From Pseudarthrobacter sp. PS3-L1 (lineage in GTDB: Bacteria > Actinomycetota > Actinomycetes > Actinomycetales > Micrococcaceae): a DNA stretch of 64,000 nucleotides. The notes beneath the pieces were generated by a model. The model did not search any database and was not told where the DNA came from. It worked only from the letters and a program-made list of their open reading frames with translations. The first letter of the stretch is position 1. Each line of letters opens with the position of its first letter. Positions 20,463 through 24,834 of this stretch are shown piece by piece. The stretch covers positions 310,001 through 374,000 of the forward strand of contig NZ_JASISU010000002.1 in the NCBI RefSeq assembly GCF_030063285.1, written 5' to 3'. A program made the translations under genes and the position numbers.

Positions 20463-21977
20463 ATGAACCAGTACGTAATCGCCATCGACCAGGGCACCAC
20501 CAGCAGCCGCGCCATCGTGTTTGATCACAGCGGCAACATCGTGTCCACCGGCCAGATGGAGCACGAGCAGATCTTCCCGAAGGCAGGCTGGGTTGAGCAC
20601 AACCCCGCTGAAATCTGGAACAACACCCGCGAGGTCATCGCCTCGGCGCTGTCCAAGGCCAACCTGACGCGCCACGACATCGCAGCCGTGGGTATCACCA
20701 ACCAGCGTGAGACCGCTGTGGTCTGGGACAAAAACACTGGCGAAGCTGTTTACAACGCCATCGTCTGGCAGGACACCCGCACGCAGTCAATTGTGGATGA
20801 ACTTGCCAAGGATGGCGGCGCCGACCGCTTCAAAGCCACTGTTGGCCTGCCTCTCGCCACCTATTTCTCGGGCACGAAAATCAAATGGATTCTCGACAAC
20901 GTCGATGGTGCGCGGGAAAAAGCAGAAGCTGGCGACCTGATCTTCGGCAACACGGATGCCTGGGTACTGTGGAACCTTACCGGCGGCACCGATGGTGGCG
21001 TCCATGTCACAGATGTCACGAACGCCTCACGCACACTCTTCATGGATCTTGAAACCCTGCAGTGGGATGAAGAGATCCTCGGTATCTTCGGGGTTCCCCT
21101 GTCGATGATGCCGACCATCAAGTCCTCCTCCGAGGTTTATGGCACAGTGCACACGTCGCAGCTGCTGCGCGAGACCCCTGTGGCCGGTATCCTCGGCGAC
21201 CAGCAGGCGGCCACCTTTGGCCAGGCTGCCTTCGCCCAGGGCGAGGCCAAGAACACCTATGGCACCGGTTGCTTCCTCATCTTCAACACGGGTGAGGAGA
21301 TTGTGCACTCCAAGAACGGCCTTCTGACGACGGTTGGCTACAAGCTTGGCGACGCGGCACCGCACTACGCCCTGGAAGGCTCCATTGCGGTGACCGGTTC
21401 ACTGATTCAGTGGCTGCGCGATAACTTGGGCATGATCAGTTCTGCCCCTGAGGTTGAGACACTTGCCGCACAGGTCAAGGACAACGGTGGGGTCTACATT
21501 GTGCCTGCATTCTCCGGTCTGTTTGCGCCTTACTGGCGCTCCGATGCCCGTGGTGCGATTGTGGGCCTGACGCGTTTTGTGAACAAGAACCACATTGCCC
21601 GTGCTGCGCTGGAGGCCACGGCTTTCCAGACCCGCGAGGTTCTTGACGCCGTCAATGCCGACTCGGGAGTACCCCTGACGGAGCTGAAGGTCGACGGCGG
21701 TATGGTCGCCAACGATGAACTGATGCAGTTCCAGGCCGATATCCTTGGCGTGCCCGTGATTCGCCCCAAGGTGGTCGAGACCACCGCACTTGGTGCGGCC
21801 TACGCTGCAGGTCTCGCCGTTGGCTTCTGGAAGGACCTTGGCGAACTCTCAACGAACTGGTCCGAAGACAAGCGGTGGGAACCGTCCATGGAGCAGGCCG
21901 AGCAGGACCGCCAGATGCGGATGTGGAAGAAGGCAGTCACCAAGTCCATGGACTGGGTTGACGACGACGTAAAGTAG
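20463..21977 (+). CDS. glpK: Glycerol kinase
   Basis: Phosphorylates glycerol with ATP, trapping it as glycerol 3-phosphate for GlpD. The 504-residue FGGY-family protein starts with the phosphate-1 motif [14 protein letters not shown]. It has the glycerol-contacting NQRET near residues 80-84, [10 protein letters not shown] near 246-255, and [16 protein letters not shown] near 416-431. Length is typical. AAGGAC precedes the ATG. Last gene of glpD-glpF-glpK. Confidence 0.97.
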
Positions 21978-21999: not shown

Positions 22000-22063
22000 G
22001 CTGTGAAGGGGGCCCCGCCCGTTTTGTGGGCACCCAAAGATGTTCCCGGGCCCCCTTCACAGC
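22000..22063 (+). terminator. Large hairpin after glpK
   Basis: Perfect 16-pair stem: GCTGTGAAGGGGGCCC (22000-22015) pairs with 22048-22063, enclosing a 32-base loop. No T-run follows. It probably ends or protects the 3' end of the glp transcript; the long loop is unusual. Confidence 0.55.
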
Positions 22064-22125: not shown

Positions 22126-22131
22126 TAAAGT
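22126..22131 (+). promoter_or_regulatory. Candidate -10 element of leuS
   Basis: TAAAGT lies 6 bases before the ATG of the leucine-rich leader ORF. Transcription would begin about at that ATG, giving a leaderless message. A weak TGGTTT lies at 22104-22109 (spacer 16). The same distance is seen at leuA. Confidence 0.45.
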
Positions 22132-22137
22132 TGTTTC

Positions 22138-22191
22138 ATGCGTGCGATCCTTCTGCTTAGCCAGCCGCCAAGTGTCCGGACCAACGGATAG
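22138..22191 (+). CDS. leuS leader peptide (leucine-rich, 17 aa)
   Basis: Short ORF encoding MRAILLLSQPPSVRTNG. Codons 4-7 are Ile-Leu-Leu-Leu (ATC CTT CTG CTT). It lies 120 bases before leuS and is followed by a terminator, the layout of a ribosome-mediated attenuator. No clear Shine-Dalgarno site is present, and a -10-like hexamer ends 6 bases before ATG, so translation may be leaderless. A Leu-tRNA shortage would stall the ribosome at 22150-22158 and alter folding downstream. The leuA leader in this window has the same plan (M-R-A-x-Leu run-S). The peptide itself probably has no function. Confidence 0.7.
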   Translation: MRAILLLSQPPSVRTNG

Positions 22192-22200
22192 TTGAGCGGC
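22164..22200 (+). promoter_or_regulatory. leuS leader stem 1 (anti-antiterminator)
   Basis: GCCGC (22164-22168, inside the leader ORF) can pair with GCGGC (22196-22200), enclosing an inner stem of 22173-22178 with 22185-22190 (one G-U pair). The right side can instead pair with the terminator's left arm: TGAG (22193-22196) with CTCA (22206-22209), plus GG (22198-22199) with CC (22203-22204). A ribosome stalled on the Leu codons would cover the left side and favour that alternative. Hand-drawn structure. Confidence 0.45.
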
Positions 22201-22230
22201 AGCCCCTCACCTGTGAGGGGCTTTTGTGTG
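22201..22230 (+). terminator. Attenuator terminator of leuS
   Basis: AGCCCCTCA (22201-22209) pairs with TGAGGGGCT (22214-22222), loop CCTG, then TTTTGTGTGT. This is a canonical intrinsic terminator only 10 bases after the leader stop codon and about 80 bases before leuS. It is placed to abort transcription when leucine is plentiful. Confidence 0.75.
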
Positions 22231-22311
22231 TCCGGGCGGAACTCGGGCCAGCAGTAGAAGGGCAGGAGTCGCGGCAGTACCCATGTCGCGACAGGACAGA
22301 AAAGGGCAGCA

Positions 22312-24834
22312 GTGACCGTTCACCCGGATACCACCGGAACATCAGCAGAGGGCGTAGTGGAGCCCACTGAAGGCATCTACAGCTTCCCCGCGATCGAGGC
22401 TAAATGGCAACAGGTGTGGGAGGAACTTAATGTCTTCGCGCCACTCGACGATGGTTCGCGCGAGCGGCGGTATGTCCTGGACATGTTCCCCTACCCTTCC
22501 GGTGACCTGCACATGGGCCACGCTGAGGCGTTCGCCATGGGCGATGTGGTCTCCAGGTACCTTCGCCAGCAGGGATTTGACGTGTTGCACCCCATTGGGT
22601 GGGACTCCTTCGGGCTCCCGGCAGAAAACGCGGCCATTAAACGCAATGCGCATCCCAGCGAGTGGACCTACGCCAATATCGATACCCAGGCCGCCTCGTT
22701 TCGTCGGTACGCCATTTCAGCCGACTGGTCCCGCCGGATCCATACCTCTGATCCTGAGTACTATCGATGGACCCAGTGGCTCTTCAAACGGTTCCACGAA
22801 CGGGGCTTGGCGTACCGCAAGAATTCTCCGGTCAACTGGTGTCCCAAGGACCAGACTGTGCTCGCCAATGAACAGGTAGTTAACGGGGCCTGCGATCGAT
22901 GCGGCACCATCGTGACCAAAAAACTCCTGAACCAGTGGTACTTCAAGATCACGGACTACGCCGACCGCCTCCTGGATGACATGGAGCAGCTCAAGGGTCA
23001 CTGGCCCGAGCGCGTTCTGGCGATGCAAAAGAACTGGATCGGCCGCTCTGAGGGAGCCCACGTCAGCTTCGTCATCGAAGCCGCAGGAAACCGCGGACAG
23101 CAGGACGTCACGGTCTTTACCACCCGCCCAGATACCCTGCACGGCGCTACGTTCTTTGTTGTTGCCGCTGATGCGGAGATTGCCCGTGAGCTAACCACGG
23201 AGGACAGGCTTCCGGCACTCGAGGAGTACCGCGAACGGGTGAAGGCCCTGTCGGATATTGAGCGTCAGTCCACTGAACGAGCCAAGACCGGAGTCTTCAC
23301 CGGCCGCTACGCTGTCAACCCACTCAATGGCGAAAAGCTTCCCGTCTGGGCAGCCGACTACGTCCTGGCTGACTACGGCACGGGTGCGATCATGGCGGTT
23401 CCCGCGCATGACCAGCGCGACCTCGACTTTGCCAAAGCATTTGACCTGCCGGTGCGTGCTGTCCTGGATACCGGGGCAGAGGACCCTGCGGTATCCGGTA
23501 CGGCGACAACCGGCGAAGGTACCCTGATCAATTCAGGGGAACTTGACGGTTTGCCCAAGGCTGAGGCAATCCCCGCTGCCATTGCCCTGCTGGAACGCCA
23601 GGGAACAGGCAAGAAATTTGTGAACTTCCGGCTCCGGGACTGGCTGCTGAGCCGGCAGCGCTTCTGGGGTGCTCCGATCCCCATCATCCATTGCCCCACG
23701 TGCGGCGAGGTGCCGGTCCCCGACGACCAGCTTCCCGTCCGTTTACCCGATGACCTGCGGGGTGAGGACCTGGCACCCAAGGGAACCTCGCCGTTGGCAG
23801 CAGTCAGCGACTGGGTCAATGTCGAGTGCCCCTCCTGCGGGGGTCCCGCAACCCGGGATACAGACACCATGGATACCTTTGTGGATTCTTCCTGGTACTT
23901 CCTGCGTTTTGTCTCGCCGGACTACACAGAGGGGCCTTTCGATCCAGAGAAGGTTAACGCCTGGATGCCGGTAGGGCAGTACGTAGGCGGTGTTGAACAC
24001 GCCATCCTCCACCTGCTCTACGCGCGTTTCTTCACAAAGGTCATCCACGACATGGGGATGATCGAAGCGAACGAACCGTTCCGCGCCTTGCTGAATCAGG
24101 GCCAGGTGCTCAACGGTGGCAAAGCGATGTCCAAATCCCTGGGAAACGGAGTCGACCTCGGTCAGCAGTTGGACAAATTCGGTGTGGACGCCGTGCGACT
24201 GACCATGATTTTTGCCTCCCCTCCGGAAGATGACGTCGACTGGGCGGATGTCTCGCCGTCGGGCTCTGCGAAATTCCTTGCCAGGGCGTGGCGCCTTGCC
24301 CAGGACGTCACCAGCGCACCGGGCGTTGAGCCTACTTCCGGTGAGCGTGCCCTGCGGACCGTGACGCACCGGACTGTCTCGGACGCTGCGGAGCTGCTGG
24401 ACAACAACAAGTTCAATGTTGTTGTTGCCAAACTCATGGAATTGGTTAATGCCACCCGCAAGGTAATCGACACCGGTGCCGGGGGAGCGGATCCAGCCGT
24501 CCGGGAAGCAGCTGAGGCAGTTGCCGTCATTCTGAGCCTCTTTGCCCCCTACACGGCCGAAGACATGTGGCAGTCGCTGGGACACGAACCTTCTGTGGCC
24601 AACGCGGGCTGGCCCGTGGTGGACAGCGCACTGCTGGTCCAGGAGAGCGTCACCGCCGTTGTCCAGGTGCAGGGCAAGGTCCGTGACAGGCTTGAGGTGG
24701 CGCCGTCGATTACCGAGAACGAGCTGCGGGAACTGGCCCTTGCCTCTGAGGCTGTCCAGCGGGCCCTTGCCGGCCGGGACATCCGGACTGTTATCGTGCG
24801 GGCCCCTAAACTGGTGAATATCGTCCCGGCGTAG
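22312..24834 (+). CDS. leuS: Leucyl-tRNA synthetase
   Basis: Class Ia synthetase that charges tRNA-Leu. The 840-residue protein has the HIGH-type motif [14 protein letters not shown] near residues 62-75, a CP1 editing domain with [12 protein letters not shown] near 271-282 and AVPAHDQRD near 362-370, and [10 protein letters not shown] near 604-613 (KMSKS equivalent). The tRNA-binding C-terminal region ends with [18 protein letters not shown] 22312 starts the gene. Expression is probably set by the leader peptide and terminator upstream. A 13-pair hairpin (24842-24870) follows the stop. Confidence 0.97.

Follow-up and report, generated by a model that had tools for sequence, protein, structure and literature searches.

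In 2005, Seliverstov et al. predicted classical attenuators, each comprising a leader peptide, an antiterminator and a terminator, before the leuS genes of Streptomyces avermitilis and S. coelicolor (PMC1262725), and an RNA-seq-based reannotation of S. lividans in 2021 reported leuL2 (peptide MRAVRLLLSEPR) as a leaderless ORF before leuS, accompanied by a hairpin and a U-stretch (PMC8079986). The leader described here, upstream of leuS in Pseudarthrobacter sp. PS3-L1, has in common with the Streptomyces attenuator a Leu-run leader peptide, leaderless spacing, a hairpin and a Rho-independent terminator before leuS. Given this earlier Streptomyces work, attenuation of leuS has good support yet is no novelty, contrary to the original prediction, which did not count such a mechanism as established for actinobacterial leuS; the literature searched contained no description of a leuS leader in Arthrobacter relatives.

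Other described systems share part of this layout. The LEU element before actinobacterial leuA also has a short Leu-run leader peptide, and is a pseudoknot with base pairing between the Leu run and the Shine-Dalgarno sequence of leuA and no terminator described (PMC1262725). We rejected identity with this element, since the leader studied here has a terminator and is followed by leuS, which starts ~90 nt past that terminator. T-box leaders likewise respond to the charging of tRNA and thereby control synthetase genes; no match to a T-box or other Rfam family was found in the window (the whole 64,000-nt stretch of DNA analyzed) or near the leader. With the trp, his and leu attenuators of the E. 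coli type, the leuS leader shares a regulatory codon run, a hairpin, an intrinsic terminator and a presumed ribosome-position signal, but it differs from them in lacking a detectable mutually exclusive antiterminator, in being probably leaderless with an ORF of 6–17 codons, and in its putative control of a synthetase.

The leuS leader of the window

All parts of the leader lie on the + strand, where positions 22126-22232 read TAAAGT-N6-ATGCGTGCGATCCTTCTGCTTAGCCAGCCGCC...GCGGCAGCCCCTCACCTGTGAGGGGCTTTTGTGTGTC. The −10-like promoter element TAAAGT (22126..22131) ends 6 nt 5′ of the leader ATG, and the same arrangement, T[AG]nnnT separated from the ATG by 6 nt, is present in almost all extracted leaders. 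Because the −10 box stands 6 nt from the ATG, the window leader mRNA is probably leaderless, with transcription starting at or next to this codon. The ORF, MRAILLLSQPPSVRTNG, comprises 17 codons (22138..22191; ATG at 22138, TAG at 22189-22191) and includes the putative regulatory Leu codons CTT CTG CTT (22150..22158), followed by a CAG codon (22162..22164) that, by comparison of leaders, occupies the site of the TAG stop in most relatives. A hairpin, H1 (22164..22200), begins 5 nt past the last Leu codon and adjoins an intrinsic terminator stem-loop, AGCCCCTCA-CCTG-TGAGGGGCT (22201..22222), identified by folding, a terminator scan and conservation, after which comes an imperfect U-tract, TTTGTGTGTC (22223..22232; TTTTGTGTGT when the last stem base is included). 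The gene presumed to be controlled, leuS, encodes leucyl-tRNA synthetase from a GTG start (22312..24834), and its protein was matched in 245 of 245 family genomes.

The window leader folded with a minimum free energy (MFE) of −44.4 kcal/mol, compared with a shuffle mean of −30.2 (z = −3.8; 0 of 200 shuffles as good), and the MFE structure contains H1 and the terminator together. Both the stem at 22164-22200 and the terminator of the original prediction are thus borne out, folding as described and far better than shuffles. A separate long hairpin at ~22000-22063 lies right after the upstream gene, glpK (20463-21977), so that glpK does not depend on the leuS terminator for its termination. The stem of this hairpin is perfect over 16 bp and its loop is long, the region folds at −49.8 kcal/mol, and no T run follows.

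Conservation of the leader among relatives

Every one of the 77 genomes sampled from the window's genus had the leader, H1 and the terminator (63 found by pattern, the others with a covariance model or by reading the sequence directly). Within the family, a pattern made up of a Leu codon, TAG, a hairpin region and the terminator matched 161 of 395 genomes, with zero reversed-pattern controls among the matches listed, so that the layout exceeds chance; a strict pattern applied phylum-wide returned 5 matches only, because it was too specific. A covariance model, R1, built from leaders of the Micrococcaceae (the window's family) only, detected leaders in 34 of the 149 genomes of the order and 88 of the 247 of the class, with rarely more than one in a genome. 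The gene after the leader was leuS in 21 of 23 order matches and 17 of 18 class matches checked; of the three other cases, one, in the order, was a cimA leader, and two were misread because a contig end truncated the locus and moved the match from its expected offset. In named genomes, R1 matched Arthrobacter, Pseudarthrobacter, Nocardioides, Marmoricola, Actinomadura, Nonomuraea, Thermoactinospora, Microlunatus and others, and gave no match in Glutamicibacter, Kocuria rhizophila, Microbacterium or Curtobacterium, which may reflect loss or divergence. One genome with two leuS-like genes (G1084) has its own leader of this kind before each (L152 and L153).

The same Micrococcaceae-only model detected the Streptomyces leuS leaders with E about 1e-8 to 5e-7, the Streptomyces genomes being recognized by the published LeuL2 peptide MRAVRLLLSEPR. 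Judged by sequence and structure, the window leader is homologous to the Streptomyces leuS leader, from which it and its relatives differ in the terminator tail and in ORF length: the Streptomyces ORF has 12 codons and a TGA inside H1, whereas that of Micrococcaceae mostly ends with TAG at the H1 base (MRAILLLS) and that of the window's subclade has 17 codons. The leader is conserved across much of Actinomycetes, in many actinobacterial families.

The part of the peptide that these leaders keep is the Leu run. Across 61 distinct leaders, Leu occupied the three run positions in 92, 95 and 100%, while CTT, CTC, CTG, CTA and TTG all occurred as synonymous codons and the residues flanking the run, including N-terminal ones, varied. 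Since Leu is kept despite synonymous variation and the flanks are variable, selection acts on the amino acid. The third Leu codon was CTT in 54 of the 61 leaders, whereas CTG dominates neighboring genes, and CTT made up 47% of Leu codons in leaders versus 16.5% in seven neighboring genes, although counts of this kind are inflated by relatedness; this third-codon preference possibly reflects demand on one tRNA-Leu isoacceptor. The middle Leu of the run can be lost, as in two genomes from the window's genus with LVL or LQL instead of LLL (L117 and L118, hit at 1501).

We read the leuS upstream regions of 50 family genomes. Most of the leaders consist of TAAAGT-N6-ATG, a 6–8-codon ORF ending LLL-x-TAG, and H1 beginning from the G of this TAG, with GCCCCT...AGGGGC-TTTTGTGTGTC after H1. 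The TAG stop occurs in nearly all Micrococcaceae leaders, but the window's subclade has CAG or AAG there, a change that extends the ORF to 17 codons, with its end on the 3′ side of H1. This form was found in 10 of the 77 genomes of the genus, the window included, so that the ORF of the element mostly falls short of 17 codons: the one originally predicted does exist, with its three Leu codons, but its length is lineage-specific, most relatives having 8 codons that end LLLS-TAG. Outside Micrococcaceae, the peptide often runs on as LLL-[TS]-[EG]-PR-TGA, and in these TGA-form leaders CCGCGC both encodes PR and forms the 5′ arm of H1; TAG-form leaders occur in Micrococcaceae and some other families.

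Two distances are conserved through these changes, that from the Leu run to H1 and that from H1 to the terminator. Among 68 leaders, the first was 5 nt in 56, though ORF length and stop codon differ, and H1, itself 19 to 58 nt long, ended 0–3 nt from the terminator base. H1 also covaries. In an alignment of 35 sequences that was not fitted to the structure, 6 of 9 H1 pairs had changed on both sides; in one of 79 distinct sequences that was so fitted, and hence leans towards the structure, 8 of 9 pairs had done so, and every whole-structure covariation measure lay above all 500 shuffles (0/500) and all slid controls. Alignment of the leuS upstream regions across Micrococcaceae, the check named with the original prediction, thus returned both conserved Leu codons and a covarying hairpin.

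The terminator arms, GCCCCT/AGGGGC, were nearly invariant, with 99.4% of cells paired in the 79 sequences, and the tail was conserved in the family alignment as TTTTG[TC][GA]TGT. At 22222-22232, the tail TTTTGTGTGT is kept in the family (alternate TTTTGCATGT) beyond what a plain U-tract needs; its GG at −10/−11 and a Y-G step resemble a pause consensus of RNA polymerase. A second ORF starting in the tail (GAGGGG-CTTTT-GTG/ATG) was rejected because some relatives have an immediate stop (GTG TAA).

Leaders with other codon runs before cimA and ilvB

Among the lower-score matches of R1, which lay before other branched-chain genes, were leaders ..VIIIR and VAHPALLIT before cimA, and VHRILVVSEHVV and MFTQTIVVVLTGRAPAAV before ilvB (acetolactate synthase), each closed by a stop codon and the latter two with the same hairpin-terminator layout; both gene names were assigned by reading translated sequences. 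The ilvB leaders lie at L154/L159 and L163 (hit at 1501). A further order match (G825:C1:2155221-2155306) adjoins a cimA gene on its upstream side, and the regions upstream of 30 cimA genes yielded further Ile-run leaders with a hairpin and terminator (e.g., MTHQVIIIT and MPITVLIIC, each followed by a stop), most of the 30 having no such leader under strict rules. Short leaders with an Ile or Leu-Ile codon run, a hairpin and an abutting terminator precede cimA, the citramalate synthase gene, in several Micrococcales and one genome from beyond that order (L105, hit at 1501; L150/L160, L173, L175, L189, L192, L193 and L196). Leaders before ilvB are known in kind (PMC1262725). Nothing relevant to the cimA leaders was found in the literature searched, in which they appear to be undescribed. 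The codon run matches the downstream gene (Leu for leuS, Ile for cimA, and Ile/Val/Leu for ilvB), which supports amino-acid sensing.

Ribosome position, H1 and the proposed antiterminator

We propose, with a probability of roughly 0.83, that the leader controls leuS by ribosome-mediated transcription attenuation, sensing the supply of charged tRNA-Leu. The Leu-codon leader with a terminator before leuS, as first proposed, is confirmed and is best read in this way. Transcription would start at or next to the ATG, as the −10 spacing and Streptomyces suggest, and a ribosome would translate the leader peptide while RNA polymerase nears the terminator. With ample Leu-tRNA, the ribosome would pass the Leu codons to the stop and cover the 5′ arm of H1, and the terminator would end transcription; with Leu-tRNA scarce, it would wait at the first Leu codon, its front edge not quite reaching H1, and transcription would read through into leuS. 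The expected outcome is that more synthetase is made when charged leucine-tRNA is low.

Counted from the first base of the codon in the A site, a ribosome protects ~12 nt downstream. On this measure, a ribosome waiting at the first Leu codon leaves H1 only just uncovered, and one that has reached the stop covers the 5′ arm of H1 in the TAG and TGA forms or its 3′ arm in the 17-codon form. Since H1 would be open with a ribosome at the stop in every form, induction by starvation would then require that intact H1 oppose termination. H1 might do so sterically; a steric effect is plausible because closure of the terminator base has to occur within the RNA exit channel and H1 sits on that base, so that intact H1 would have to enter the channel. 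Within the attenuation reading, we put this forward tentatively as the best guess.

The reverse role for H1, in which it helps termination as a protector or pause hairpin and is opened by a ribosome stalled on the third Leu, so that control would consist in the loss of H1, seems unlikely to us. H1 and the terminator can coexist and stack, as in the MFE structure that holds both, and with the third Leu in its A site a ribosome would extend to the H1 base. The first hungry codon, however, is the first Leu, from which the footprint (~12 nt) ends just before H1. Moreover, H1 would be opened further by a ribosome at the stop than by one at any of the Leu codons, so that the response would have the wrong sign.

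Strictly classical trp-type attenuation, in which the 3′ arm of H1 pairs with the 5′ arm of the terminator as a 2:3 antiterminator, we consider improbable. The pairing originally proposed for this role, TGAG (22193-22196) with CTCA (22206-22209), exists in the window, and in many leaders a GG...CC pairing is possible across a three-base loop. We computed the antiterminator gain as the free energy from pairing the 5′ arm of the terminator with leader RNA outside the stalled ribosome. In the window it came to −2.7 kcal/mol, versus −15.6 kcal/mol for the terminator, and over 68 leaders it averaged about −1.2 kcal/mol, versus −2.9 in dinucleotide shuffles and ~−15 for the terminator. Only 17–18% of these leaders beat their own shuffles, and with stalling at the first Leu codon 0 of 68 did, in part owing to competition from H1 itself. 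Even inside the window's genus, the GAG that precedes CGG is not conserved, and no upstream pairing of the terminator rose above chance among the 68 leaders. The proposed antiterminator is accordingly weak and not conserved, and the original description of the locus as a complete classical layout was too strong: a regulatory codon run matching the controlled gene is present, but a mutually exclusive antiterminator sharing bases of the terminator 5′ arm was searched for and not found. As no conserved pairing competes with the terminator, the classical switch misses a part. A further candidate that emerged from the folds, pairing of CGGC in the 3′ arm of H1 with GUCG of the terminator loop, fails in leaders whose loop ends GACG.

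A constitutive terminator behind an unregulated small ORF, with partial termination setting the leuS level or yielding a short RNA, is very improbable, for although the imperfect U-tract could allow constant partial read-through, the Leu run is kept through synonymous changes in the 61 distinct leaders and the codon run becomes Ile or Val before cimA and ilvB.

The leuS leader, then, is real, is functional as judged by its conservation, and is most likely an attenuator. We can imagine, as a somewhat doubtful extension, that it belongs to a modular class of actinobacterial attenuators without an overlapping antiterminator, in which a ribosome-gated hairpin, set at a constant 5 nt from three regulatory codons and abutting the terminator, decides sterically on termination and a swap of the codon run changes specificity. 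What these leaders hold at a fixed distance from the hairpin is the codon run, and not the stop codon or the ORF length, and this exposes a puzzle, namely a hairpin that would be gated by the ribosome and oppose the terminator without sharing bases with it. The missing antiterminator and the modular architecture are worth following, and two predictions from Streptomyces become a widely conserved element with covariation support.
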